From Bacteroidota bacterium (GTDB lineage Bacteria > Bacteroidota > Rhodothermia > Rhodothermales > UBA10348), in assembly GCA_029262855.1 (NCBI GenBank), contig JAJCYP010000030.1:69111-133110 (forward strand): a stretch of 64,000 nucleotides of DNA, written 5' to 3'. This document shows positions 5 to 16,592 of the stretch, piece by piece. Position numbers and translations under genes: made by a program. The notes under the pieces were generated by a model that was not told the DNA's origin, made no database searches, and saw only the letters and a list, made by a program, of their open reading frames with translations. Every line of letters starts with the position of its first letter. The first letter of the stretch is position 1.

Positions 5-1102
5 ATGTCCAGAGATATCAAACCGCATTCCGTCGTTCTTGGTGGCGCCGGCTTCGTGGGTTCGCACCTGTGTGACCTGCTCCTGTCTGAGGGCCATCAG
101 GTGTCCTGTCTTGACAATCTGGCCACCGGCCGGGAAGTCAACATCCGGCACCTCCTGGGTCGACCCGACTTCAACTTCAGTGTCCAGGACATTCGGGACT
201 CGATTGACCTCGAGGGCCCGGTGGATTTTATCTATCACCTGGCAAGTCCGGCATCGCCCAAGCACTATTTGGAGATGCCATTCCTGACCCTGGAGACGGG
301 TTCGAAGGGCACGCAAAACGCGCTGGACGCGGCCAGACGCTTCGAGGCGAGGTATCTGCTGGCATCCACGTCCGAGGTCTACGGCGATCCGGAGGTGCAT
401 CCTCAGGTCGAGACCTACTGGGGACACGTCAATTCCATCGGCCCTCGGTCGGTCTATGACGAAGCCAAGCGCTACGCCGAGGCGGTATCGATGGCCTACC
501 AGCGCGAGCGGAATACTGACGTGGTGCTGGTCCGCATCTTCAATACCTATGGCCCGCGAATGCGTCCGGACGATGGTCGAGCCCTGCCCGCCTTCATTTC
601 CCAGGCTCTGGCCGGCGACCCGTTGACCATTCATGGTGACGGGAAACAGACTCGTTCATTCTGCTATGTGGCGGATCTGGTCCGCGGACTCTACGCAGCC
701 GCGAACTCCCGCTCCTGCGGCCCCATCAATCTGGGCAATCCGTCCGAGGTGTCGATCGCGGATTTTGCGCGCGAAGTCATCGCCCTCACGGGTAGCGCGA
801 GCACGCTGACCTTCCATCCTCGCCCGGAGGACGACCCCACCGTTCGGAAGCCGGATATCGCGCGAGCACGGGATCTGTTGGCCTGGGAGCCGAAGGTCAA
901 CCGAGAGGAAGGACTGAAACTGACCATCCAGTACTTTGCCGAAGAGCTGGGATATGAAGGCGCAAGAGACCCGCAGACGGCTCCCAAACGCGTCCACACC
1001 AGGGCGCCTGCAGCACGCAGAGATCGGCCGGCCGCGGAACGCCAGAGAGGTCCCAAAACTTTCGTAGGCAAAAGGAATCCGGACGGAGGCGTTGCCCGAT
1101 AG
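5..1102 (+). CDS. UDP-glucuronate decarboxylase-like NAD-dependent epimerase (UDP-xylose synthase family)
   Basis: Extended short-chain dehydrogenase expected to turn UDP-glucuronate into UDP-xylose, or a related sugar-nucleotide reaction, in the cytoplasm for exopolysaccharide synthesis. The Rossmann motif GGAGFVGSH lies at residues 13-21 and the catalytic YxxxK is Y151/K155 (YDEAK). The family fold ends near residue 315; the last 50 residues are a basic, Arg-rich tail not needed by the family. The start lies 4 bases from the window edge, so a longer N-terminus cannot be excluded. The end overlaps the next gene by 11 bp, which suggests an operon. Family call strong; exact substrate inferred. 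Confidence 0.85.
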   Translation: MSRDIKPHSVVLGGAGFVGSHLCDLLLSEGHQVSCLDNLATGREVNIRHLLGRPDFNFSVQDIRDSIDLEGPVDFIYHLASPASPKHYLEMPFLTLETGSKGTQNALDAARRFEARYLLASTSEVYGDPEVHPQVETYWGHVNSIGPRSVYDEAKRYAEAVSMAYQRERNTDVVLVRIFNTYGPRMRPDDGRALPAFISQALAGDPLTIHGDGKQTRSFCYVADLVRGLYAAANSRSCGPINLGNPSEVSIADFAREVIALTGSASTLTFHPRPEDDPTVRKPDIARARDLLAWEPKVNREEGLKLTIQYFAEELGYEGARDPQTAPKRVHTRAPAARRDRPAAERQRGPKTFVGKRNPDGGVAR

Positions 1103-3608
1103 CGGCAATCATACCGACGGTTGGCGGGCGCCCGATGGCGGTTCGCCTGACCCGCGCCGAACGCCACCAGAGCGGTCGGCGCTGCTGCGTTCCCATTCCC
1201 CGGGTTCCTTCAGCGGGGTGCGTGGGGCGAATCAGCCGCCAGTTGCCCACTACGGGTCCCAGGTTTCTCCCAACGTCGGGCCACCACAGACACACTACGG
1301 GTCGCCCCCCGGTTTTCAGGCAGGCCCCACCCGAGCCGCGTGGGGAGAGTCCCTGTATCAACAGCCTTCCGTCGTGAGGCCGACCAGTGCGCGAGATGTA
1401 GTCAAACGCCTGCATCGCAACCGCTGGCTGGGAATGCTCATCTGCTCAGCCGTGTGGGCGGCGACAGTTGCGGTAGTGACCCTCATTCCGCCCCGATTCG
1501 AATCTTCGACCATTCTGCTGGTGGATACGGCCGCGATGAAGGCGACAGCCGCACGATATACCAGCGTGGAGGATGTGGTATCGGCATTCGGGTTGCCGAA
1601 GGTGGCCAATCAGGCCGCTGTTCTCCGGACCGTCCCGGCAATCGCCGAAGCGGCCGCGACCAAACTCACAGCCGATCTCCCCGCGGATCAGTTGGCGCTG
1701 TTGCCAACTACCGAAGTCGCCGGCCTGGTGGAGTGGCTGCGCGAGAGCGCCATCCTGATAACGGCCGAGGCCGGGAAGGACGACGCCGATCTGATTCACA
1801 TTACAGCGAAAGCTGGCGGCCCTGAGTTGGCATCGGCGGTCTCGACTTCCTATGCCGAATCCTACATGTCCATGATGAGGGCGGCCGTCGCCCGGTCGCG
1901 CGAGCAGGCGCTGGCGCTCCAGCGGGGACGCGTTGCCGAGGTTGGAGACGAGTTGACGGCACTCGACGATCAACTGCGCACCTTCATCCAGAACAACGGC
2001 TCGATTTCCATAGAGGAGGATGCGAACCGGGCCGCGACAAGGATTTCCGATCTCCAGACCGCGCTTGATGACGCCCGCATCGCCTTCTCAACACACAGCG
2101 CTACGCTGGAGACCCTGGAGTCGGAGCTGGATGGCCTGGACCTTGCGAGTCTGGCCGAGCGCGTCGGCTCGTCCGTGGAAAGCGAAATCACCGCGACGCA
2201 GGAGCAGCTGACGACCGCTGAACTGAGCCTGGAGCAGTACTACTCGAAGTACCCCGAACTCCGGGCTGATCCCTCCGGCAGTCCTCAAGTGATGAAGCTG
2301 GTCAATGATGTCAAGGCCATGCGCAGCCGGCTGGACGGGTTGTCTGCCCAGTACGTCAGGGAGGTAATGGCCACCGGCGGGGTCGATCTCGGCAGCGACT
2401 CCGACGGACGCGCGTACGTGCTCAACCTCCGCCAGCAGATTGCCCAGCAGCGGGTGGCCAAGCGGGCCTCCGAGGCGCGGGTGGCCGCCATCAACAGCAG
2501 GCTGGCGGCCTTCGAACGGTCGCGTTCCCAGTTCTCGAGCCAGTCGGTCTCTCTGACTCAAATCCAGCGGGGCCGGGATTTGGCGAACACCCGTCTGAAG
2601 ACCGAGATCGACCGGCTGGGCCAACTTCAGGTTGATGAGCCGACCGAGTTCATCAAGCGGATCCAGTCAGCCCTCGCGCCGGACGAGCAGGCGTTCCCGA
2701 ACGTCAAGCTCTTCGTTCTCGCAGGGCTCTTCCTTGGCCTCCTGCTCGGAGGGGGCGCCGCTTTTGGCTGGTCAGCCATCGATTCGTCCGTGTATGGCGA
2801 GGAGGATCTGGCCCAGTTCGGCGTGCCGGTCTTCGGCAATCTTCCGGATCTGACCCGCGTGGTTAAGAAACTTGTGGGTCGCACCTCGACCGTGGATGTG
2901 GGCGGACGGGTGGTGTCCAGCCGTCTGGTTGTCATGCATGCCCCGCAGGCGGCCGAGTCGGCCATCATTCGCAAGTATGCGATTGGACTGGCGGCCCGCA
3001 CGCCGCGCGGGGGGACCATTCTTTTCACCAGCGCAGACATGGGAGCGGGCAAGACTACGCTGACGGCCAATGTCGGGGCCGCCCTGAGCCTTGCGGGGTA
3101 TCGAACCCTGGTGATTGACGCCGACATATTCCGTCCGGGACAGTCCGAGACGCTCGGACTCACTCCCCGTTCGTCCCTGGACGTGGAGACCGGCGCATTC
3201 GGACAGGGCGGTGGCGTCGAACAATTTGGGGGCATCCTTCAATTGCTCTTCGGCTTGAAGCTGAGGGCCCGGATTCCGTCTGACGGTGAGGCTCAGGCGG
3301 CTCAGGCTGCCGTTCATCTGGCCCGGTTCTACGGTCAGCATTTCGACTACGTACTCGTGGATGCGCCGCCTACCGCGGCCTCCTCCATTGCCGCCGGTAT
3401 CGGGCGATACGCCCATACCAGGGTCCTGGTTGTGGGTGCCGGAAAGACCCACACTGACCTCGTGAGAATGTCGCTGGCGGAGTTGCAGTCGATGGGGTCT
3501 GCAGCCACAGAAATCGCCATCAACAGGATGGACATGTCGGAGCCCACGGCCGTACGATCAGCCTACCAGCAGGCGCAGGCGTACTACGGCGGAGCGCAGA
3601 TGGAATGA
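1092..3608 (+). CDS. Wzz chain-length / BY-kinase-like polysaccharide co-polymerase
   Basis: Inner-membrane regulator of polysaccharide chain length and export (Wzc-like). After a Pro/Gly-rich cytoplasmic stretch of about 100 residues come a Wzz domain with its first membrane helix (about 113-131), a long periplasmic coiled-coil region, and a second helix (about 538-560). The cytoplasmic ATPase follows: Walker A GAGKTT at 651-656, Walker A' VIDAD at 674-678 and a Walker B-like YVLVDAPP at 753-760. The C-terminus has only three tyrosines (AYQQAQAYYGG), a poor version of the usual Tyr cluster. The TTG start at 1092 overlaps the epimerase gene; later starts would shorten only the low-complexity N-terminus. 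Confidence 0.85.
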   Translation: MPDSGNHTDGWRAPDGGSPDPRRTPPERSALLRSHSPGSFSGVRGANQPPVAHYGSQVSPNVGPPQTHYGSPPGFQAGPTRAAWGESLYQQPSVVRPTSARDVVKRLHRNRWLGMLICSAVWAATVAVVTLIPPRFESSTILLVDTAAMKATAARYTSVEDVVSAFGLPKVANQAAVLRTVPAIAEAAATKLTADLPADQLALLPTTEVAGLVEWLRESAILITAEAGKDDADLIHITAKAGGPELASAVSTSYAESYMSMMRAAVARSREQALALQRGRVAEVGDELTALDDQLRTFIQNNGSISIEEDANRAATRISDLQTALDDARIAFSTHSATLETLESELDGLDLASLAERVGSSVESEITATQEQLTTAELSLEQYYSKYPELRADPSGSPQVMKLVNDVKAMRSRLDGLSAQYVREVMATGGVDLGSDSDGRAYVLNLRQQIAQQRVAKRASEARVAAINSRLAAFERSRSQFSSQSVSLTQIQRGRDLANTRLKTEIDRLGQLQVDEPTEFIKRIQSALAPDEQAFPNVKLFVLAGLFLGLLLGGGAAFGWSAIDSSVYGEEDLAQFGVPVFGNLPDLTRVVKKLVGRTSTVDVGGRVVSSRLVVMHAPQAAESAIIRKYAIGLAARTPRGGTILFTSADMGAGKTTLTANVGAALSLAGYRTLVIDADIFRPGQSETLGLTPRSSLDVETGAFGQGGGVEQFGGILQLLFGLKLRARIPSDGEAQAAQAAVHLARFYGQHFDYVLVDAPPTAASSIAAGIGRYAHTRVLVVGAGKTHTDLVRMSLAELQSMGSAATEIAINRMDMSEPTAVRSAYQQAQAYYGGAQME

Positions 3609-4990
3609 GCCCGTTCGCTGCTCCCTATCCAGGTTCGCAGCTGGTGGTGCCCTCTCGCGCGGACCACTCGCAAGCCGGGCCCGTGTACACGCCTACGCTG
3701 CAGGCAACCACCAGCACGGCCGAGCGCACGTTCCTCTGGGCCCTGTGCTTCGTGTTGGCCGGCTACGCCTTGCTCGGCCGCGGTTTTGCCTATCTGGGAG
3801 TGGCCCCGCTGTTCGTTGGAGAAGTCGCGCTGGTGCTGGGTGTACTGGCGTGGTTCGGCGGGCGCGATGCCCTGGCCCCGCTCCGGTCTGTGACGGGTGG
3901 GGCGCTGGCCTGTTTCATGCTGCTCGGGGCCGTGCGTCTGGCAGTAGACCTGCCCACCTACGGAGCGTCTGCCGTGCGGGATGCCGTGGTCTGGGGCTAT
4001 GCGGTGTACGCGCTGGCGATCTCGGCCATCATCATGCGAAACCGGGACGTCCTCAGGGTCTTGATCGACCGGTTTAGACCGCTGTCGGCGGCGGTCATTG
4101 CCGGGGGAGGGATTCTGTTTGCGATCTCTTTTACCCTCTCGGCATCGCTTCCGACCCTGCCAGGGTCCAATGCCACCATTCCCGGTCTGAAGGGCGGAGA
4201 TACGATGGTGCATCTGGCCGGGGCCACCGCGTTTGTTCTCATCGGGCTTCGCGGCAAGACCTGGTGGATGCTTCCGATGATCATTGCCGATTTCGGCCTG
4301 ATCGCCCTTAAGAATCGTGGGGGAATGCTTGCCTTCCTGCTGGCGATGGCTGTGGTCTTGACGCTGCGATCCAGGCGGGTCCGAATCGGAATATGGTCTT
4401 ATCTGAGCGTAGTTGGCGTGTTGCTACTGGTTCTGATAAACCCCAAAATCGAGCTCTACGGTGAACGCTCCGTATCGTTGGAGCAGCTCGTGGACAACTT
4501 CCGGAGTCTGACCGGCAGGTCCGGGGAAGCCGCGCTGGAGGGATCGAAGGAGTGGCGCCTCTCGTGGTGGTCAGACATCGTGGAGTACACCTTTGCCGGG
4601 CCCTATTTCCTGGCCGGAAAGGGGTTCGGACTCAATCTGGCTACCGACGATGGCTACCAGGTGGACGAGGAGGAGTCCTTGCGCAGTCCCCACAACGGCC
4701 ATCTGACGGTGCTCGCCAGAATGGGCGTTCCCGCATTTCTGCTCTGGCTCCTGCTTCAGGGCGCGTGGGCCATATCCATCCTCCGAAGTCTGCTACTGGC
4801 CCGCGCCAGGGCAGAGGACGGCTGGCATGGGCTGTTTCTATTCCTGCTGGCCTACTGGTCGGCGTTCATGGTGAACATCACCTTCGATGTCTTCATCGAG
4901 GGCCCGATGGGCGGTATCTGGTACTGGAGCCTGTTTGGCGTCGGTCTGGGAGCAACCCTGGTATACCACCGACAGTGGGCCGGCACATGA
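3605..4990 (+). CDS. O-antigen ligase/polymerase-like membrane protein
   Basis: Polytopic membrane protein of 461 residues with roughly ten hydrophobic helices and a large non-membrane loop near residues 280-370. That loop contains the segment around GKGFGLNLA and SPHNGHLTVLARMGVP, typical of the O-antigen ligase/Wzy superfamily (the conserved H-N-x-x-L region). It likely polymerises or ligates the repeat units made by the neighbouring enzymes, on the periplasmic face. The start codon overlaps the Wzz gene stop (ATGA), and its own stop overlaps the next start the same way, so translation is probably coupled. Ligase versus polymerase cannot be decided from sequence alone. Confidence 0.8.
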   Translation: MSPFAAPYPGSQLVVPSRADHSQAGPVYTPTLQATTSTAERTFLWALCFVLAGYALLGRGFAYLGVAPLFVGEVALVLGVLAWFGGRDALAPLRSVTGGALACFMLLGAVRLAVDLPTYGASAVRDAVVWGYAVYALAISAIIMRNRDVLRVLIDRFRPLSAAVIAGGGILFAISFTLSASLPTLPGSNATIPGLKGGDTMVHLAGATAFVLIGLRGKTWWMLPMIIADFGLIALKNRGGMLAFLLAMAVVLTLRSRRVRIGIWSYLSVVGVLLLVLINPKIELYGERSVSLEQLVDNFRSLTGRSGEAALEGSKEWRLSWWSDIVEYTFAGPYFLAGKGFGLNLATDDGYQVDEEESLRSPHNGHLTVLARMGVPAFLLWLLLQGAWAISILRSLLLARARAEDGWHGLFLFLLAYWSAFMVNITFDVFIEGPMGGIWYWSLFGVGLGATLVYHRQWAGT

Positions 4991-5781
4991 TCCGAAACGC
5001 ACAGGTTGTCTCCTTTCCGGTGGCGGCGCTGAACTACGAGCGCGCGGTTGGGGCCGTGATGGAAGACCTAGAGGCTGGCCGCGGCGGGTATGTCTGCGTG
5101 GCAAATGTCCACATGGTCATGGAGGCCCACGACGACCCCGCCTTTGCCGAGGTGGTCGAGGGCTCACGGTTTACGACTTCCGATGGGATGCCGCTGGTGT
5201 GGATGCTCCGGGCGCAAGGCCTGAAGGAGGCCGAGCGGGTGTATGGCCCGTCCCTGACGTTGGAGCTCTGTGCCTCGGCCGCTCGTGAGGGCCTGCCGAT
5301 TGGCCTCTTCGGAGGAACTGAGCAGTCGCTGGATGACTTTCGGGCGGTGCTTGGCGAACGGTACCCGGACCTGGATGTGGTCTGTGCCATCTCGCCGCCA
5401 TTTCGTCCGCTGATGGCGGAAGAAGATGCGCAGTACACTGCGAGACTGAGGGAGTCAGGCGCCCGGTTGATCTTCGTTGGAATCGGTTGCCCAAGGCAGG
5501 AACGTTGGATGGCAGAGCACACGTCCCGGCTACCGAACGCGATGCTTTTCGGGGTGGGAGCGGCCTTCGATTTTCACTCGGGCAGGGTGCGGCAATCGCC
5601 GCCGATACTGCAACGAATGGGCCTCGAATGGGCCTTTCGCCTCGTGATGGAGCCGCGCCGTCTCTGGAAGCGGTACGTGATTCACAACCCCCGTTTCGTG
5701 CTGCTGGCCCTGTGGCAGTTAATCCGTAGACGTGCCCGCAGCACGGCTTCGGCACGAAAGGTGCAGAAGACGGCATCATGA
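4987..5781 (+). CDS. WecG/TagA/CpsF-family glycosyltransferase (GT26)
   Basis: GT26 enzymes transfer ManNAc, ManNAcA or related sugars onto undecaprenyl-linked GlcNAc at the membrane surface. The protein has 264 residues, usual for the family, and shows the typical blocks: VANVHMVMEA near the N-terminus, a TSDGMPLVW segment, LFGGTEQSL, and FVGIGCPRQERWM followed by FGVGAAFDFHSG. I chose ATG 4987, which overlaps the upstream stop by 4 bp; the open frame extends further upstream, but only as an out-of-frame read of the ligase gene. WecB, which could supply ManNAc, is encoded at 58983 in the second cluster. Confidence 0.88.
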   Translation: MIRNAQVVSFPVAALNYERAVGAVMEDLEAGRGGYVCVANVHMVMEAHDDPAFAEVVEGSRFTTSDGMPLVWMLRAQGLKEAERVYGPSLTLELCASAAREGLPIGLFGGTEQSLDDFRAVLGERYPDLDVVCAISPPFRPLMAEEDAQYTARLRESGARLIFVGIGCPRQERWMAEHTSRLPNAMLFGVGAAFDFHSGRVRQSPPILQRMGLEWAFRLVMEPRRLWKRYVIHNPRFVLLALWQLIRRRARSTASARKVQKTAS

Positions 5782-7023: not shown

Positions 7024-8196
7024 ATGCGGGTTCTGATGGTCCATGGGTACTACCAGCAGTTCGGAGGCGAGGACATGGTCTTCGATGCCGAGGGCGCTCT
7101 GCTGGAGTCGCACGGTCACACCGTGGAGCGCTTCACGTTCGACAATCACGAAATCGAGTCGTGGTCTTCGGCCAAGAAAGCGGCATCGCTCTTTTGGAAT
7201 CGGGACGCGCGGTCCCGTGTCCGCGATCTCATCCGGTCCTTCGCGCCCGACGTGATGCACGTCCAGAACACATTCCCCGGCCTGTCGCCGTCCGTGTACG
7301 CAGCGGCCAATGAGGCCGGCGTTCCCATCGTCCAAAAACTCTGCAACTACAGACTGCTGTGTGCGAACGGCATGCTGTTCCGCGACGGTCACCATTGTGA
7401 AGACTGTCTGGGAAAGCGGATTGCCTGGCCAGCCGTGGCCCACAAGTGCTTCCGGGATCACCGGGTGATGAGCGGTGCCATTGCGGGAGCCTATGGTCTG
7501 CACCGTGCACTGGGAACGTGGACCCGGCGAATTGGGGCGTTTCTCGCGCTCGATGAAGGCGGACGGGAGCTGTTCATCAAGGGTGGGCTTCCCGCCGATC
7601 GGGTCCTCGTCAAACCCAATTTCCTCGACCCATTTCCCGCTCAAGGCTCCGGAGAGGGCAACTACGCCTTGTTCGCGGGTCGGGTGGCGCCAGGCAAAGG
7701 CGTTGAGACGCTGGTGCGTGCGTGGGCCAACGACCCATCTCTGCCGGGATTGAAGGTGGTTGGGGATGGCCCTCTCCTGAATCAGGTGAAGAGCCTGGCC
7801 GGCGAGGCAAGCCACATCGAGTTCCTCGGACGGGTCTCACCAAATGAGGTGAGTACCCTGATGGGCTCAGCCGCTATTCAGGTGGTCCCGTCCGAATCCC
7901 GTGAGCCCTTCGGGAGAGTCGCGCTCGAGGCCATGGGAACCGGGACCCCCGTGCTCTCGACTCGCTCCGGAGCGCTGGAAGGCCTCATTCGGCCGGGAGA
8001 AAACGGCGAACATTTCGATGCCGGTGATCCGACCGACCTGGTGGCCAAGGCGCGTAGCCTGCTTGGAATCGCCGCCGGCCTCCGCACTCAGACCCGGGAG
8101 AATGCCATGCAACGCTTCTCGGGCGCTGCGAATCACGCGGCACTCATGCACGCCTACCGTGTGGCCAGCGCACACGCGGCCGCGGCCGATGCCTGA
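7024..8196 (+). CDS. Glycosyltransferase family 4
   Basis: Second GT4 enzyme, 390 residues from ATG 7024 (MRVLMVHGYYQQFGGED). The open frame continues upstream, but that part lies over the preceding gene, and the MRVL start fits the family; GTG 7021 is a one-codon alternative. The C-terminal half shows YALFAGRVAPGKGVETL, VVGDGPLLNQ and the E-x7-E motif in VPSESREPFGRVALEAMGTG. A four-Cys cluster near residues 112-142 (LCNYRLLCANG, HHCEDCLGK) is seen in a subset of GT4 proteins and may bind metal. It ends 8 bp inside the next gene. Confidence 0.85.
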   Translation: MRVLMVHGYYQQFGGEDMVFDAEGALLESHGHTVERFTFDNHEIESWSSAKKAASLFWNRDARSRVRDLIRSFAPDVMHVQNTFPGLSPSVYAAANEAGVPIVQKLCNYRLLCANGMLFRDGHHCEDCLGKRIAWPAVAHKCFRDHRVMSGAIAGAYGLHRALGTWTRRIGAFLALDEGGRELFIKGGLPADRVLVKPNFLDPFPAQGSGEGNYALFAGRVAPGKGVETLVRAWANDPSLPGLKVVGDGPLLNQVKSLAGEASHIEFLGRVSPNEVSTLMGSAAIQVVPSESREPFGRVALEAMGTGTPVLSTRSGALEGLIRPGENGEHFDAGDPTDLVAKARSLLGIAAGLRTQTRENAMQRFSGAANHAALMHAYRVASAHAAAADA

Positions 8197-9709
8197 CATG
8201 CGAACGGCCCTTATCCTCGTGGGCTTATGGCTGACGTTCCAGCCAGCTGCGACAGACCCCGGCGTCAAATACCGGGGCGATTGCACCACAGACCCGGCGA
8301 ACGGCCGCGTATTCTGGATCGACGACGCTCACCCGGCCGCGCGGGACGATGGGGCGGGCACCCCTGCCGCACCCTGGAAAACGCTCGCGGCCGTGTCCCG
8401 GCGCGACCTGCGGCGTGGCGATACCATCCGCATTCGCGAAGGCCTCTATCGCGGGGCGCTACGTCCCCGGAGCCCCGGACTGACCATTGAGGGCTGTCGG
8501 GGCGAGGAAGTGATCATCTCGGGTGCCCGTGTCCTCCAAACAGATTGGACTCCGGCGGGCGAGGCCTGGCAGGCCGAACGCTACCGGCCGCGGTATGGCT
8601 TCGGTGACACCTATGACGAGAACTTCGTGGTTGCCGACGGAGCATTCCTTCGACCCGCCGAGACTCGGGAATCGATGACGCCGCAGACCTTCCTGGTCCA
8701 GGAGGATCGCTACGGGAGTCCGCGCATGCTGCTCCGCCTGCGGGATGACCACCGTCCCGACTCCTCGCGCATTGAGGTGGCCGTACACGACGTCCTTTTC
8801 GGTCCCTCAGACGGCACGCCGTGTCGCGACACGAACCCGACAGAACCGGGGCACCAGGTTCGCAATCTCATTTTCCGTCACGCCGCCAACCCGGCCCAGA
8901 CCGGAGCCGTCTGCGTCTGGGGCGAAGGCGGGCTTCTTGAAGACGTCCGGGTCGAAGACACCAACGGACGCGGCGTCGAGGTCTGGGGCCATCGGCACGT
9001 CATCCGGCGGGTCCAGGCGTCGAGCCACGGACATCTCGGCATTGGCGGGGGATGTAAGGAATGCCTGGTCGAGGACGTCACCGCGGACGGCAACAACTGG
9101 CGAGGCCACGACCCTTTCTGGGAAGCCGGCGGTGGAAAATGGGTCTATACCGAAAGAACAGTTTTCCGCCGATTTGTGGCGCGGGACAACGACGGGCCGG
9201 GTCTCTGGTTGGACGGAGCCAGTTCAGACAACCTAATCCGGGAGGCGAACCTGTCAGGCAATCTGGTGTCCGGACTTCAACTGGAGCTGGGCTCAGATCG
9301 AAACCGGGTCGAAGACTCCCGCATTTCCGGGACACGCCGCGATGGCTGGGCGGCAGCCGGGATACTGATCATGGCGACCCAGGGCACCGTGCTCTTCGGG
9401 AACGAGATCTTCGGCAATGAGGGCAGCGGACTGTGGGTCCGAGTCGATGCCAGGCAGCCCACGGGTGGCGTCAGCGCGACGAACAACTGGTTTCACGACA
9501 ACGCGGCACGTCCCGGTGACAAGGATTTTCAGGTTCGCGTGGATCTGGACATTGCTCCCGGTGCACCGTTTCCGCCTCTGGAGTGGACCGGAAATCGCCT
9601 GTCAGCGGAGCCCATCGGGCACGTGGCCGGAATGCGAATGGACCGCGAATCGCCCGTCCAGGAATTCGGCTCCGAGACTGAGTTTGCCCGGGCCCTGGGG
9701 CTGAAGTGA
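8189..9709 (+). CDS. Secreted right-handed parallel beta-helix repeat protein
   Basis: 506-residue protein with an N-terminal hydrophobic export signal (ALILVGLWLTFQPAA). A DUF1565-like entry segment follows (GAGTPAAPWKTLAAVSRRDL), then many short rungs such as NRVEDSRIS, LFGNEIFGNEGSGLWV and SATNNWFHDN, which mark a right-handed beta-helix (PbH1). Folds of this type in polysaccharide loci are usually lyases, epimerases or glycan-binding proteins acting in the periplasm or outside. No catalytic residues can be assigned by eye. ATG 8189 overlaps the upstream stop; ATG 8198 is an alternative start. It closes the first run of tightly overlapping genes. Confidence 0.8.
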   Translation: MPDMRTALILVGLWLTFQPAATDPGVKYRGDCTTDPANGRVFWIDDAHPAARDDGAGTPAAPWKTLAAVSRRDLRRGDTIRIREGLYRGALRPRSPGLTIEGCRGEEVIISGARVLQTDWTPAGEAWQAERYRPRYGFGDTYDENFVVADGAFLRPAETRESMTPQTFLVQEDRYGSPRMLLRLRDDHRPDSSRIEVAVHDVLFGPSDGTPCRDTNPTEPGHQVRNLIFRHAANPAQTGAVCVWGEGGLLEDVRVEDTNGRGVEVWGHRHVIRRVQASSHGHLGIGGGCKECLVEDVTADGNNWRGHDPFWEAGGGKWVYTERTVFRRFVARDNDGPGLWLDGASSDNLIREANLSGNLVSGLQLELGSDRNRVEDSRISGTRRDGWAAAGILIMATQGTVLFGNEIFGNEGSGLWVRVDARQPTGGVSATNNWFHDNAARPGDKDFQVRVDLDIAPGAPFPPLEWTGNRLSAEPIGHVAGMRMDRESPVQEFGSETEFARALGLK

Positions 9710-9788: not shown

Positions 9789-11285
9789 GTGATTAAGCAA
9801 ACCACATACGCCGAAGCAGAGGCGCCGCGACTCGAGCGCCCCCTCGAGAGCTTCTTTGAGGTCTCGGACGATATCAGCGAGGCGAGCGCCCGGGCTGCGG
9901 CACGCGACCGTTCGCACTGGCCGACCGATGGCGCTCGCATAGCTGGTTTGGGTTTGTTTGCCGCCGATGCCGTGGCGTTGTTTACGTCTATCGCCCTGGC
10001 CAACTTGGCGGTCCGCGGAACCATCGCCATTCCGGCGTGGAGCATTCTCCTGGCGGGCGTCTGGTTGGCGAGACTGGCGATGGGTCGCTGCTATCCCGGC
10101 TGGGGAACGGGCCCGATTGAGCAAGTTCGGAGCAGATTTCAAGCAGTCTTCGCGGCCGCCGCCGCGGCTCTCATGGGAGCCTACGCCGCCGGCGATCCTG
10201 CGATGGAGGCCCTGCGGGTAACCGCCGTGGCTTGCGGTCTTGGAATGGGTTCGACCCTGCTTTCCAGAAGTCTGGTTCAGTCCTACCTCCACAGGCGCGG
10301 ACGCTGGGGAGTTGCCACCGTTTTCTACGGCACCACCGAGAGCGTCAGGCGGATTGTCCAGGTGGTTCAGACCCAACCGCAGGTTGGCTTTCGGCCCGTA
10401 GGCATTTTCGAGGACGATCCCAGAATTTGGGGAAGGGAACTCGCGGGCGTTCCGGTCCTCGGGGACACGGCGCTTGTTCATCCAGACGCAGCTGTTGCCA
10501 TCGTCGCGGACCTCGGAGGGACGCACGCCAATCGCATGGATGCCCTGCTCCGATACTATCGTCGCGTCGTGGTCATTCCGGACCTTCTGGATCAGTCCGC
10601 AACCATCATGCAGCCGATTGACTTTGGGGGCCTCCTGGGACTTCAGGTGGAAGTAAATCTGGCGTCGCGAAGTGCGCGTTTCCTCAAGAGAACGGTCGAA
10701 CTTGCAGCAACCGCCATCACGCTCCCAATATGGGGGTCTATCGCAGCGCTGGGGGCCCTGGTGATCTGGCTGGAGGACAGACAGAATCCCTTCTACGGGC
10801 AGGTGCGCGTAGGCCGCAATGGAACGTCGATCCGCGTGCACAAGATCAGGACTATGGTGCCTGATGCGGAGTTGGTGCTCGCCAGGGCCATGGGGGCAGA
10901 CGAATCACTTCGAATCGAGTGGGAGTCCACCTCAAAGCTTCAGAAGGACCCAAGAATAACGCGCGCGGGAAACATCCTGAGGCGCCTGTCCATCGACGAG
11001 TTGCCTCAACTCGTCAACGTGTTGACGGGCGACATGGCGTTGATCGGTCCGCGACCCTTGCCTGACTACCATGAGAAGCGACTCAGTTCCGACGCCCGCG
11101 CCATGCGTCGCCGGGTCAGGCCCGGTGTGACAGGATTGTGGCAGGTCTCGGGGCGGAGCGACACGGGAGACGATGGAATCGCGTGGCTGGACGCCTACTA
11201 CGTGCGTAACTGGTCGGTCTGGCTCGACCTCGCTGTCCTATTCCGGACGTTCCGCGCGGCGGTCAAGGGCGAAGGAGCGTACTGA
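9789..11285 (+). CDS. Undecaprenyl-phosphate sugar phosphotransferase (WbaP-like)
   Basis: Initiating polyprenyl-phosphate hexose-1-phosphate transferase, the first membrane step of repeat-unit assembly. The N-terminal half has several hydrophobic helices (about 50-150), then a CoA-binding-like segment (FYGTTESVRRIVQVV, about 178-193). The catalytic Bac_transf domain runs from about 297 to the end: KRTVELAATAITLP membrane helix, NPFYGQVRVGRNG, HKIRTM, DPRITRAGNILRR, SIDELPQLVNVLTGDM, IGPRP and PGVTGLWQVSGRS (about 444-456). GTG 9789 is the first reasonable start, after a 79-bp gap. The 3' end overlaps the convergent deacetylase gene by 48 bp. Confidence 0.9.
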   Translation: MIKQTTYAEAEAPRLERPLESFFEVSDDISEASARAAARDRSHWPTDGARIAGLGLFAADAVALFTSIALANLAVRGTIAIPAWSILLAGVWLARLAMGRCYPGWGTGPIEQVRSRFQAVFAAAAAALMGAYAAGDPAMEALRVTAVACGLGMGSTLLSRSLVQSYLHRRGRWGVATVFYGTTESVRRIVQVVQTQPQVGFRPVGIFEDDPRIWGRELAGVPVLGDTALVHPDAAVAIVADLGGTHANRMDALLRYYRRVVVIPDLLDQSATIMQPIDFGGLLGLQVEVNLASRSARFLKRTVELAATAITLPIWGSIAALGALVIWLEDRQNPFYGQVRVGRNGTSIRVHKIRTMVPDAELVLARAMGADESLRIEWESTSKLQKDPRITRAGNILRRLSIDELPQLVNVLTGDMALIGPRPLPDYHEKRLSSDARAMRRRVRPGVTGLWQVSGRSDTGDDGIAWLDAYYVRNWSVWLDLAVLFRTFRAAVKGEGAY

Positions 11286-12296
11286 GCCTCCGGCTGGAGG
11301 ACGTGCGAATCGATCGCGATGGCGACTGGCCGGCTCAGAGTATTCAGGCCACGGAACGGCGCTCCAATGGGAGAGCTGGGAGCTGGGCTCCTGCGTGTAC
11401 GTCGGGAAGCCCACCGGCACGCCGCCCGGGGAGAGCGCGTTTCTCGCCGAGAAATAGAGAGTGTGCTTGATCGGGTCTGCAGCCCAGATCTGGTCTCGGC
11501 ACAGGACGACGTCCTTTGGAGCCTCGGGACTGTCGGAAAGGAGGTGCGCTCCACGGACCACGGAGGAGGCCGAAACATGCCCGGCCTCGAAGATCAACCG
11601 CTTGGCCGCCCTCGAACAGTGATCGACCTGGCCGTAGGGCCAGGCAAAATGAAGAACCGGACCGAACCGGCGTTCCAGCCACTCTCTCGCAGATTCAATC
11701 TCTCGGGCCAGTCGGTTGACCGGGGTCTCCGAGCACACGACATGGGTGGTGGTATGATTGCCAATCTCGTGGCCGTCTCTCACCAGACCCTCCAGTTGTC
11801 TCTGGTCGAGGAATCGGCTCGGCCGGGCCTGCAAGCGTACTCGACAGAACTCGGCCACCCACGCGTCATCGCGGTTGGCAACGCTGGCCGGGTTCACAAA
11901 GAAGCATCCGGTTGTCCCGAACTCCTTGAGGACCGCAGCCAATCGGAGGTTCGATTCGAACCCGTCGTCCGAACTGAAGCAGGCCACGGGTCGGTCAGGA
12001 CGTCGTCCTTCAAGTACCATCCGGACCCCCTCTGACCACGACGCAAAGCGGTAGTACCTGGAAAGATGCTTCAGGAGTTCCCGGAATCCGGTTTCCTCAT
12101 CCCTGAACAGATGATGCAGGCAATAGAACTGAACCCTGGGAATTCTCAGGCCGCGTTCGATATCTCCAGAAAGGCGGGCTGCGGCGTGGAGGGCTGCGAT
12201 CGCCGCGCGTCGTCCCGCGCGACGGGGAAGTGTCCGTAGCGGGGGATGATTCCACTCTGAAAAAGAGTCGGGGAAGTATGGTTCGGCAGCCGGCAC
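11238..12296 (-). CDS. Polysaccharide deacetylase (NodB homology domain)
   Basis: Carbohydrate esterase family 4-type protein, 352 residues, expected to remove N- or O-acetyl groups from a glycan. The first metal motif appears as CFSSDDGFESN (usual TFDDG), with the two aspartates kept; the H-x3-H motif is present in GHEIGNHTTTHV, and FAWPYGQ follows as motif 3. No signal peptide is obvious. It is encoded opposite to its neighbours and runs into the 3' end of the WbaP-like gene. The GTG at 12296 sits only 7-8 bases downstream of a sigma-28-like -10 box, so the mRNA may be nearly leaderless. Confidence 0.82.
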   Translation of the reverse strand: MPAAEPYFPDSFSEWNHPPLRTLPRRAGRRAAIAALHAAARLSGDIERGLRIPRVQFYCLHHLFRDEETGFRELLKHLSRYYRFASWSEGVRMVLEGRRPDRPVACFSSDDGFESNLRLAAVLKEFGTTGCFFVNPASVANRDDAWVAEFCRVRLQARPSRFLDQRQLEGLVRDGHEIGNHTTTHVVCSETPVNRLAREIESAREWLERRFGPVLHFAWPYGQVDHCSRAAKRLIFEAGHVSASSVVRGAHLLSDSPEAPKDVVLCRDQIWAADPIKHTLYFSARNALSPGGVPVGFPTYTQEPSSQLSHWSAVPWPEYSEPASRHRDRFARPPAGGSVRSFALDRRAERPE

Positions 12297-12418: not shown

Positions 12419-15400
12419 ATGGCAATCCTGAGGGCGAAATCGCGCACTGCCGCGGTTCCGCTTGCAGACCAGGCCCTGGTCAGCCTGGTCAATTTTTCCT
12501 CTTTCTTCCTGCTCGCCCGGGAAATGGAGGAGATCTCCCTGGGGCACTTCGCCATCGCCTACACCCTGCTTCTGGTTCTGACTGCTTTTCAACAGTCGCT
12601 CCTGACCAGCGTATTTCAGGTCAAGGGCGCTCGGAAGGAAGGTGAAGGACTGCGCCGATTTACAACAGTATTGTTCGCACTGCAGTTGATGTTGGGCGCC
12701 GGAATGGCATTGCTCTTCGGCCTTTTGGGTGGCGCGGCCATGTTGGGTGGCCTTCCGGCCCTGGGTTTTCTCGCGGTGGTCTTGGGCCTTGCCGCGGCGC
12801 CATGGATGACCCAGGATCTGGCTCGTAAGGTCTTCTACACCCAGGGGCGAACCAGGAGCGCGCTCATCAATGATGGGATCTCCTACGGACTCCAGATTGC
12901 GGGCGTCGCCTGGCTGGTGCTCAGACGCGAGCCCCCGGCGGCCTGGGAAGCAATCGCCGTGTACGGTGCGGGATCGGCCGTAGCCTCGCTGGTCGGGTTC
13001 GTCCAACTGCGCGACATTCTGGTGCCACGACTTCTGAAAGAACGCGACCGTGCCCGGGTAGTCGCGCGAGAAATCTGGACCTATGGAAAATGGCTGGCCG
13101 GCGCACAGGCCTGGCGCCAACTGGGCGGTACGGGGCACACCTGGATTATCACCCTGGCCCTGGGGCCAGCTGCTCTGGGTGCTTACAGGGCGCTGGTTCA
13201 CCTGGTGAACGTGCTCAACCCCATCGAGATGGTGATCTCGCTCTGGCTGCCGTCAGAGGCAAGTCGTCGCTATGCCGCCGGAGGCTCCTCGTCGGTCAAG
13301 GCGTGGTTCCGCAAGGTCATTCCGATGCTGCTCGCACCGACGGGCCTGGGGGCACTGCTGTTCCTGCTGTTCTCGCAGCAGATCGTCGAACTGGCCTACC
13401 CCGGGAAGTACACAGGAACTGGATTCCACTGGATTGTTGCCCTGGCCGCCGTCGGTCGTCTGATTCACTTCGGCCGGGACCTGTATCACAACGCCCTGCT
13501 TGCCTGCGACCGTCCCAGTACGTCGCTGCTCGACAGCATGCTGACTGTGGGTATCAAATACGTGGTCGGGATCCCTGCCATCCTGGGCTTGGGCATCCTG
13601 GGAGCGCCCGCCGCTACGCTCATTGTCGCGATCACGACCTTGTCCTATAACCGGCGCACGTTCGAGGCCATGGCCGACGCCGATTTCGAGGCCCGCCAGC
13701 CAACCGTCTGGAAGACCGTCGGCGAGGGTTCCGAGGGACGGGTTTTCAAAGACGTCCATGCGGGGATTGCCACCAAGGTCTACTACGACGACGACGCGGT
13801 GGACGAGGCGTGGCGCTACTACATCGGTCTCCTCGCGGCGTTTGATCATGTGGAACAGGATCTGGTTTCGACGCCCATCCCCATCGAGTTCGAGCCCGAC
13901 ATTCCGCTTATTCAGATGGAAGCCTGCGAAGGGATGTCACTGGCAGCCTATATCCGGTCTCACTCGCTGGGAGCGACCAACCTTGAGGCCCTGGCGGAGA
14001 GAATCTGGTTCGGTATTCGCACGATTCCCACCGCAACGGCTGAGCCGACATATGGGCTGTGGCCGGACAATATTCTCTTCGACAGGGACGCCAACCGGGT
14101 CACGTTCGTCGATTTCATCACCGGAGAAAGGCGTGTGAACGTCACTTCGGCCTCCATGGCAGCGCTGACACTCGGCGGCTTCCTGGGTCCCGCTCTCTAT
14201 GAGCTGTCGCGTCCCACCCGCTGGTTCCGGCCGCTCGCAAACATCCGCATTGTTCGTCTGTGCCGGGCCGTGCTCGCGCGGGCGCTCAGAGATGGAGAGT
14301 CGTTGACAGACATCGCAGAGGCCACGCGCCAGGTATATGCCGTCTGCTCGAGCTCCGGCTCGGCAGAACGTCAAGCCTGGTACGGTCACGTTGGCCGCCT
14401 CCTGTGGAGTTTCAATTCACGTCGCGTTTTTGCTACCAATCCCGTGGGCCATCGGCCTTCGGGCCCATCCATGATTTGTCACTACGTGACCAGATTCCCC
14501 ACGAATGACCAGCGCACCGCGAACGGCGTGCACAAGGCTGTTCGTGGACTGGCTGGTGGGCTTCACCAACTGGGGACCCCTACCGAGATCCTCACCGACG
14601 GCGGCGTGCGGTGCAGCTGGATTACACCCGATGGCGTGGACGTCCATGCGTTCCGGGAGCGAGGCCCCGTCCCTGGGCTCATGTTGCCGGCCGAAATGAA
14701 AGCTCATATCGATTCTCTGCCGGAGCGAACGCTGTTCGTGGTGCACGGGCAGTTCAGTCCCCGCATGACCAGAGTCGCCGCGGCACTTCGTTCGATGGGG
14801 CGGCCTTACGTGGTCATGCCCCACACGCTGTACAGCGATGCGGTTTTCGCCAAGAACCGGATCGTCAAATTCATCTATTGGCACCTCCTGGAGAGGCCAA
14901 TGCTCAAGAAGGCATCGCTGATTCAGATTCTTGAACGCGACCAGGCGCAGCCCTTGCGACGCCGCGGGGTCAACACCCCGGCAGCGGTCGTCCCCAATGC
15001 CATCGATCCGGCTGACACCCCTCCGGAGGCCGGGTTGACCTGGTCCACCACCGGGCCGATACGACTCTACTATCTGGGACGAATCAATTTCCATCAGAAG
15101 GCGCTCGATATCCTGGTAAAGGCCGTCGCGCAAGTCCGGAAGGAATTCGACATCCACCTGACCATTCAAGGGCCGGACGCAGGTGACCTGGAGACCTTGA
15201 AGAGCATCGCCCGCCAGACCGGCGCGGATCAGGTCATGACGATTCTTCCCCCGGAGTTCCAGAAGGGGGCGTCGGAGCTGATCGCTGAATACGACGTGTT
15301 TTGCATGCCTTCCCGTATCGAGGGATTCCCCATGGCGGCTCTGGAGGCCATGCAGGCCGGTCGGCCTCTGCTGTTCACGAATGTGAGTGGTCTGACCGAG

Positions 15401-15739
15401 ACCATCGAGCAGTCCGGTTGCGGTGAGTTGGTTTCGCCGACGGTCGGTGATGTGGTGAGAGGTCTGAAGACCCTCTGCGCCCGCAGACTCGAGTTCGAGG
15501 CGATGGGCAGGGCGGGACGCGATTACGTAATTCGGCGGTACTCGCCCATGGCGTCGGCGCGCATCGCCACGGCAGCCTATGGCCGCGTCATTCCGGGCAC
15601 GGCCGGGCGCGCATCGGCACGGCCACAGTCAGGGCCGCAGCCAGGGCCACAGTCAAGGCCGCTCTCAAGTGAGCGACCGGCCATTGAACCTCAAGCTACG
15701 CGCTCCGCGGGGCAAGGTCAGGGGCAGGCTGCACCTTAA
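12419..15739 (+). CDS. Fusion: Wzx-type flippase, kinase-like domain, GT4 glycosyltransferase
   Basis: Single uninterrupted frame of 1106 residues joining three usually separate functions. Residues 1 to about 420 form a polysaccharide flippase-like membrane domain with many hydrophobic helices. Residues about 424-674 resemble a protein-kinase/aminoglycoside-phosphotransferase fold: glycine loop GEGSEGRVFK at 435-444, Lys453 (ATKVYY), catalytic-loop-like YGLWPDNILF at 545-554 and D565 (FVDF). The usual catalytic-loop HxD Asp is absent (Leu547). Residues 685 to about 1060 are a GT4 glycosyltransferase, beginning MICHYVTRFPTNDQR, with E-x7-E at E968/E976. The ATG at 14471 could also serve as an internal start. 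ATG 12419 was chosen because the flippase begins there. A Pro/Gln-rich repeat tail follows. Confidence 0.82.
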   Translation: MAILRAKSRTAAVPLADQALVSLVNFSSFFLLAREMEEISLGHFAIAYTLLLVLTAFQQSLLTSVFQVKGARKEGEGLRRFTTVLFALQLMLGAGMALLFGLLGGAAMLGGLPALGFLAVVLGLAAAPWMTQDLARKVFYTQGRTRSALINDGISYGLQIAGVAWLVLRREPPAAWEAIAVYGAGSAVASLVGFVQLRDILVPRLLKERDRARVVAREIWTYGKWLAGAQAWRQLGGTGHTWIITLALGPAALGAYRALVHLVNVLNPIEMVISLWLPSEASRRYAAGGSSSVKAWFRKVIPMLLAPTGLGALLFLLFSQQIVELAYPGKYTGTGFHWIVALAAVGRLIHFGRDLYHNALLACDRPSTSLLDSMLTVGIKYVVGIPAILGLGILGAPAATLIVAITTLSYNRRTFEAMADADFEARQPTVWKTVGEGSEGRVFKDVHAGIATKVYYDDDAVDEAWRYYIGLLAAFDHVEQDLVSTPIPIEFEPDIPLIQMEACEGMSLAAYIRSHSLGATNLEALAERIWFGIRTIPTATAEPTYGLWPDNILFDRDANRVTFVDFITGERRVNVTSASMAALTLGGFLGPALYELSRPTRWFRPLANIRIVRLCRAVLARALRDGESLTDIAEATRQVYAVCSSSGSAERQAWYGHVGRLLWSFNSRRVFATNPVGHRPSGPSMICHYVTRFPTNDQRTANGVHKAVRGLAGGLHQLGTPTEILTDGGVRCSWITPDGVDVHAFRERGPVPGLMLPAEMKAHIDSLPERTLFVVHGQFSPRMTRVAAALRSMGRPYVVMPHTLYSDAVFAKNRIVKFIYWHLLERPMLKKASLIQILERDQAQPLRRRGVNTPAAVVPNAIDPADTPPEAGLTWSTTGPIRLYYLGRINFHQKALDILVKAVAQVRKEFDIHLTIQGPDAGDLETLKSIARQTGADQVMTILPPEFQKGASELIAEYDVFCMPSRIEGFPMAALEAMQAGRPLLFTNVSGLTETIEQSGCGELVSPTVGDVVRGLKTLCARRLEFEAMGRAGRDYVIRRYSPMASARIATAAYGRVIPGTAGRASARPQSGPQPGPQSRPLSSERPAIEPQATRSAGQGQGQAAP
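15621..15668 (+). repeat. Short tandem 12-bp repeat at the fusion-gene 3' end
   Basis: Four imperfect 12-base units of the form GGCC[AG]CAG[TC]CA[AG], the last more diverged. In the fusion-protein frame they encode a Gly-Pro-Gln-Ser-Arg low-complexity tail. They lie after the last glycosyltransferase helix, so copy-number change would not disturb the enzyme. Confidence 0.7.
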
Positions 15740-15797: not shown

Positions 15798-16592
15798 ATG
15801 ACCGCTGTAGTACTCGCCGGGGGCAAAGGCACGCGCCTGGCCCCCTACACCCGCATTCTCCCCAAGCCGCTGATGCCGATCGGGGATGTCCCGATTCTGG
15901 AGGTGCTCATCCGGCAGTTTCGACGGGCAGGGGTAACCGATGTCATCCTGACGGTGGGGCACATGGCCAGTCTCATCCGGACGTATTTTGGAGATGGTTC
16001 GGGCTTTGGCGTGAACATCACCTACAGCTACGAGGACGAACCACTTGGCACAGCGGGGCCACTCGCGGCCGTACGCGACGGGATCAAGGAAGACCACGTC
16101 CTGGTGACCAACGGCGACGTCCTGACGGACTTCGACTTCTCCGATCTGTTTACCCAGCATCGTGCCAGCGGAGCCGCGGCGTCCATCGCGTCCTTTCGCA
16201 AGAAGGTCAAGATTGATCTGGGCGTTCTCGAGCACGACGGGGGAGAAGATGGAGACCGCCTGACGGGTTACATCGAGAAGCCTACTTACGACTTCCTGGT
16301 GAGCATGGGTATCTACATGTTCCGGCGCGATGTGCTCGACTCCATTCCAGAGGGCCAGTATCTGGACTTCCCGGACTTGATTCTCCAGCTTCTGGAGAAG
16401 GAGCAATACGTGCGGCTGCACAAGTTTGAGGGCTACTGGCAGGATCTCGGCAGGCGCGAGGACTACGAAGCCGCCAACGAGGATCTGGATCGACTGGGCT
16501 CCATCTTGAACGAAGCCCCGGTACGGGCCACTGATCGTCCTGCGGCGCCGCGCGCCGGCACCCACAAGGTCACAATAAAGAAACCGGCATGA
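15798..16592 (+). CDS. Sugar-phosphate nucleotidyltransferase
   Basis: Activates a sugar phosphate to an NDP-sugar in the cytoplasm. The 264-residue protein carries the signature LAGGKGTRLAPYTRILPKPL right at its N-terminus, then GTAGPLAAV, NGDVLTDFDF and IEKPTYDFLVSMGIYMF, as in RmlA/mannose-1-phosphate guanylyltransferase enzymes. ATG 15798 was chosen because the signature begins there; the frame is open further upstream, but only over the preceding gene's Pro/Gln-rich tail. Its stop overlaps the aminotransferase start (ATGA). With the next two genes it likely makes one dedicated modified NDP-sugar. The specific sugar cannot be read from sequence. Confidence 0.87.
   Translation: MTAVVLAGGKGTRLAPYTRILPKPLMPIGDVPILEVLIRQFRRAGVTDVILTVGHMASLIRTYFGDGSGFGVNITYSYEDEPLGTAGPLAAVRDGIKEDHVLVTNGDVLTDFDFSDLFTQHRASGAAASIASFRKKVKIDLGVLEHDGGEDGDRLTGYIEKPTYDFLVSMGIYMFRRDVLDSIPEGQYLDFPDLILQLLEKEQYVRLHKFEGYWQDLGRREDYEAANEDLDRLGSILNEAPVRATDRPAAPRAGTHKVTIKKPA

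Follow-up and report, generated by a model that had tools for sequence, protein, structure and literature searches.

One gene in the window (the whole 64,000-nucleotide stretch of Bacteroidota DNA that was analyzed) joins a flippase, a kinase-like domain and a GT4 glycosyltransferase in a single polypeptide. This three-domain fusion, first noticed in an initial annotation made from the sequence alone, is confirmed. Judged by its residues, the kinase domain keeps most of the predicted nucleotide-binding site and is degenerate only in the three-way fusion. We give about an even chance to the reading that it is a tethering pseudokinase between the GT4 and Wzx domains, descended from a kinase whose substrate was probably either a lipid-linked glycan or a protein partner. 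No description of a flippase-kinase-glycosyltransferase fusion was found in the open-access literature, which agrees with the initial remark that no such protein was known. However, two-domain precedents exist, since flippase-pseudokinase and kinase-glycosyltransferase fusions are each known separately (PMC6180346, PMC11231755).

A single intact frame encodes three domains

Translation of the plus-strand frame yields 1106 codons with zero internal stops, just as the initial annotation had reported. The ATG at 12419 sits before the conserved start of the flippase, making upstream in-frame starts unnecessary, and the sequence 5′ of it is the divergent side of the minus-strand polysaccharide deacetylase gene. 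A plus-strand frame at 11319-12035 is spurious, being antisense to this conserved deacetylase. An assembly join is rejected because another species of the genus (G002) also has all three domains fused in one stop-free frame, with 62% identity across residues 5-1085; GC content is also uniform along the gene. The same homolog rules out a sequencing artifact.

Table 1. Features of the fusion gene and its locus (positions in the window unless a contig is named)
Feature	Position	Strand	Basis or remark
NDP-sugar epimerase/dehydratase, locus start	5..1102	+	Pfam Epimerase
Wzz/Wzc-type chain-length protein with ATPase domain	1092..3608	+	
Wzy_C-type polymerase or ligase	3605..4990	+	Pfam Wzy_C 1.6e-14
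WbaP-type initiating sugar-phosphate transferase	9789..11285	+	Bac_transf 2e-51; TIGR03022 5.4e-99
Polysaccharide deacetylase, divergent from fusion gene	11238..12296	-	Pfam Polysacc_deac_1 5.7e-13; ~64% identity in G002, same place
Three-domain gene (Wzx flippase, pseudokinase, GT4), 1106 aa	12419..15739	+	Open frame; full-length homolog in G002, 62% identity
Predicted Wzx/MOP flippase domain, aa ~9-423, about 12 membrane helices (counted on model)	12443..13687	+	WzxE 9g9p Z 33.4
Predicted APH/Bud32-type kinase-fold domain, aa ~430-670, without catalytic Asp and helix-C Glu	13706..14428	+	Model, residue alignment
Degenerate catalytic loop EPTYGLWPDN, aa 542-551	14042..14071	+	Alignment; relatives E-P-Y-H-D-F-x-P-x-N
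GT4 glycosyltransferase domain, aa ~683-1060	14465..15598	+	Pfam above cut-offs; structure match; E-x7-E motif
Pro/Gln-rich C-terminal tail, disordered, little conserved	15599..15736	+	pLDDT about 30; 26% identity to G002
Sugar-1-phosphate nucleotidyltransferase, next 3′ gene of fusion	15798..16592	+	Same neighbor in G002
Free kinase paralog, all hallmark residues, YHDFAPVN loop	contig C30:68215-69057 = L032:13216-14058		

A Pfam scan of the whole protein finds GT4 at residues 700-1034, Polysacc_synt below threshold at 19-267, and nothing in the middle. The proposal of three domains in one polypeptide is nevertheless borne out, with the folds coming from structure prediction and GT4 also from Pfam. 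The full-length model has a pLDDT of 82 and a pTM of 0.49, so the arrangement of the domains within it is unreliable.

The flippase part of the model (residues 10-420) aligns over 396 residues with WzxE, its closest solved structure, at 15% sequence identity. Its Polysacc_synt score of 21.9 bits lies under the curated cut-off of 28.2. On the model, the domain is a sequence-divergent member of the Wzx/MOP group, an assignment carried by fold and by context: Wzz/Wzc-like, Wzy_C and WbaP genes lie in the same locus as the fusion gene. The lipid III flippase WzxE shares the fold of the N-terminal domain but has no fused domains itself. With about 12 membrane helices, both flippase ends, and therefore the kinase and GT4 domains, would be cytoplasmic.

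The GT4 domain matches Glyco_trans_1_4 (9.1e-22) and Glyco_trans_4_4 (1.2e-12), both above cut-offs. Its part of the model (683-1062) has a GT-B fold, with Z 32 to 6kih and 31 to MshA, and its E-x7-E motif is E968/E976.

The middle domain has a kinase fold and has lost catalytic residues

Modeled alone, the middle domain reaches a mean pLDDT of 89 and a pTM of 0.87. Its closest solved structure is PsiK (Z 16.6, 238 aligned, rmsd 4.2), and good matches are also obtained to PRPK/Bud32 (Z 15.9, 196 aligned, rmsd 3.4), methylthioribose kinase (Z about 15) and APH(2'') (Z about 14). Mycobacterial PknB, at Z 11.7, falls below this APH/Bud32-type range of 14-17. The kinase-fold similarity that had been suspected is upheld by structure prediction. 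When the whole protein was scanned, the domain had no Pfam match at E 0.1; scanned alone, it gives a weak match to Pkinase (E 0.013). Searching with a profile built from nine members of the family retrieves the Bud32-type KEOPS-complex kinase chain 8k20_B at E 3.5e-9. The kinase assignment rests on this family profile and the model, the domain's own sequence similarity to kinases being weak. Of the nearest folds, Bud32/PRPK, methylthioribose kinase and APH(2'') are soluble enzymes with intact catalytic residues and different substrates.

Alignment supports the residues named in the initial annotation. The glycine loop VGEGSEG (434-440), Lys453, Asn551 and Asp565 are retained, and the catalytic-loop Asp is missing, with Gly at position 546 here, Thr in the G002 fusion and no shared acidic substitute. 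Comparison with relatives reveals an additional loss, that of the helix-C Glu, whose position (467) is Tyr in both three-way fusions. The Glu467 and Asp546 positions are intact in all eight other members and lost only in these two proteins, where the catalytic-loop His-Asp of relatives (YHDFxPxN) has become YG and FT. Lys453 and Asp565 are invariant in position across the ten aligned members.

Relatives carry the same parts in other combinations

A search for the same fusion, or for adjacent split genes, in other genomes was productive on both counts. This flippase clade occurs in 8 of 27 family genomes, and the same eight carry the kinase. Among the 244 genomes of the class, neither reaches a comparable score outside these eight, and outside them no comparable kinase was found in 395 genomes sampled across the phylum. 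Weak kinase-profile matches do occur in many class genomes; most of them fall in frames of some 600-1000 aa, long enough that we regard these as ordinary Hanks-type kinases. Contig scans with P0001 and with the alignments found no further named members, and a scan with the GT4 half of G007 (public record JAQBZH01, a Bacteroidetes MAG) matched G007 alone.

The fusion in G002 has matching neighbors: the WbaP-type transferase and the deacetylase flank it to one side, the nucleotidyltransferase and an aminotransferase to the other. The two three-way fusions represent two species and one evolutionary event, and support in the kinase tree is too low to order the fusions. Identity between the two proteins is 61% in the flippase, 53% in the kinase and 71% in the GT4 domain, making the kinase domain the fastest evolving of the three. 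In all three domains, differences at third codon positions are about two times as frequent as at first and second positions; the kinase domain is therefore under constraint.

In the six other family genomes, the parts are distributed over usually overlapping genes, either as flippase and kinase-GT4 or as flippase-kinase and GT4. A flippase gene is followed by a kinase-GT4 gene in G007, G011 and G013, while in G010 a flippase-kinase gene is followed by one ending in GT4, and G001 and G004 have a flippase-kinase gene (a fusion without GT4). The junctions in G007, G011, G013, G010 and G001 are 4-base ATGA overlaps, and the genes are therefore probably translationally coupled and readily fused. 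Where contigs are long enough to show them, the neighbors of the split forms are Wzz-like, Wzy and sugar genes. G010 has one additional flippase without a kinase. In the same genome, the gene at L015:8888-11395 fuses the GT4 to a preceding P-loop region (GPDGVGKTT) and to an N-terminal stretch that has no Pfam match; from its motif, the P-loop region is a putative further kinase-like partner of the same GT4 clade.

The kinase in the relatives still looks active from its sequence. The kinase-GT4 proteins (L014, L016 and L018) keep the catalytic Asp, with Asp/His replacing the usual Asn, and their loop D-C/F-T-L-D-H resembles the HRDCYICH of WaaP at the motif level only.

Free kinases and other fusions of the locus

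The free kinase paralog at the head of the locus ends 54 bp before the window start, just 5′ of the epimerase gene; the G002 assembly breaks at the spot where its counterpart would sit. A second free kinase of the family in the source genome (contig C70, L080:1405-2292) lies in no obvious glycan locus, adjoining a gene whose sequence reads like a GAPDH-like dehydrogenase, and shows that the family is not restricted to glycan loci.

This type of locus is prone to fusions. In G007 one protein (L014:3053-5320) combines a WecG-type transferase with a right-handed beta-helix domain; the window encodes the two in separate genes (4552-5781 and 7901-9709).

Possible roles of the fusion protein

Neighboring genes that have fused repeatedly in varied combinations are a usual sign of proteins that work together, and the fusions described here suggest a physical coupling of sugar addition and phosphorylation to export. 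The common object of the GT4, kinase and Wzx domains would be a polyprenol-linked repeat unit at the cytoplasmic face of the membrane. Because kinases of polyprenol-linked glycans are known and these neighbors have fused repeatedly, the ancestral kinase probably acted on the glycan; in the relatives a lipid-linked glycan is the probable substrate, and a partner protein is less likely. In the three-way fusion, its residues indicate that catalysis has most likely been lost, and the domain would be a tether, perhaps also a sensor of nucleotide or glycan. The initial suggestion that glycan phosphorylation is coupled to transport is weakened for this copy, from which both Asp and Glu are gone, but it does fit the relatives and the free kinase.

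As we picture the tethering pseudokinase, the whole protein would be one membrane component of a pathway for exopolysaccharide of the Wzx/Wzy type. On the cytoplasmic side, its GT4 domain would attach a sugar to the lipid-linked repeat unit, which the Wzx domain would then flip outward. We infer that the pseudokinase holds these two domains together, and it may bind nucleotide, phosphate or glycan and so pace the hand-over. Phosphorylation of the glycan, if still needed here, would be the task of the intact free kinase at the locus head.

Perhaps the domain does more than tether. The mycobacterial flippase MurJ (MviN) has the same order, a MOP-superfamily flippase of lipid-linked sugars followed by a cytosolic kinase-fold domain that is regarded as a pseudokinase and reported to be non-essential and possibly regulatory (PMC6180346). 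By analogy, the domain studied here might bind a partner or nucleotide and toggle flipping, a reading we consider doubtful but worth keeping in view. It would fit the flippase-kinase fusions without GT4 in G001 and G004 and the presence of Lys453, Asn551, Asp565 and the glycine-rich loop in both three-way fusions, and given the same three residues the nucleotide-gated transport raised in the initial annotation is possible. However, the MurJ route runs through phosphorylation by PknB and the FHA protein FhaA, and the kinase fold here is nearer to APH/Bud32 than to PknB. A search for FHA (PF00498) that was positive in 6 of 14 control genomes had no match in the source genome, which is 99% complete, and FhaA-type control is accordingly rejected. 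MurJ also differs in handling lipid II rather than exopolysaccharide units, in having 14 helices rather than about 12, and in lacking a GT4 domain.

A more elaborate 'add-check-flip' machine, in which GT4 finishes the unit and the nucleotide-binding pseudokinase gates Wzx by sensing either nucleotide or a glycan that has been phosphorylated or completed, strikes us as unlikely. The same holds for the further elements of this picture, that catalysis was ceded to the free paralog at the locus head and that the fusion performs pre-export quality control in the Wzx/Wzy pathway.

We think it rather improbable that the domain is an atypical yet active kinase that phosphorylates a lipid-linked glycan despite lacking Asp and Glu. 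Metal and nucleotide residues are indeed retained, and such activities are established. At the cytoplasmic membrane, the kinase-fold domain of WbdD from E. coli O9a has polyprenol-linked glycan as its substrate (PMC3482155), and Klebsiella O7 ORF6, a methyltransferase-kinase-GT2 protein, carries an APH-like kinase for polyprenol-linked glycan in the same polypeptide as glycosyltransferases (PMC11231755). Yet the D441A change in ORF6 abolishes activity (PMC11231755), and the two species with the fusion differ at position 546, one having Gly and the other Thr. WbdD (methyltransferase-kinase-coiled coil) and ORF6 (a chain terminator with a methyltransferase and no flippase) are active kinases of ABC-transporter pathways; terminators of this type have the catalytic Asp, as does the free paralog, whereas the fused kinase does not. 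The WaaP-like loop of the kinase-GT4 relatives might also be cited in favor of activity, but a WaaP-like glycan kinase is rejected: the likeness is confined to that motif in those relatives, profile comparison finds no similarity to WaaP/WaaY, with an hhalign probability of 0.1% against a single E. coli WaaP sequence.

A neutral fusion, in which overlapping genes were joined by stop loss and the kinase domain is decaying, would be eased by the ATGA overlaps and would fit the fast evolution and lost key residues of that domain and the WecG-beta-helix fusion in G007, but it is very improbable given that no stop or frameshift has appeared despite a 38% residue difference between the two species, that the codon-position bias extends to the kinase domain and that the remaining site residues are retained.

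The fusion bears on the question of how Wzx flippases admit finished repeat units only and whether they touch the glycosyltransferase that acts last. With flippase, kinase and GT4 joined in several combinations, their cooperation becomes testable by splitting the protein or mutating single domains. The fusion also provides a second, apparently independent flippase with a pseudokinase, one whose kinase branch is nearer to APH/Bud32 than to PknB.
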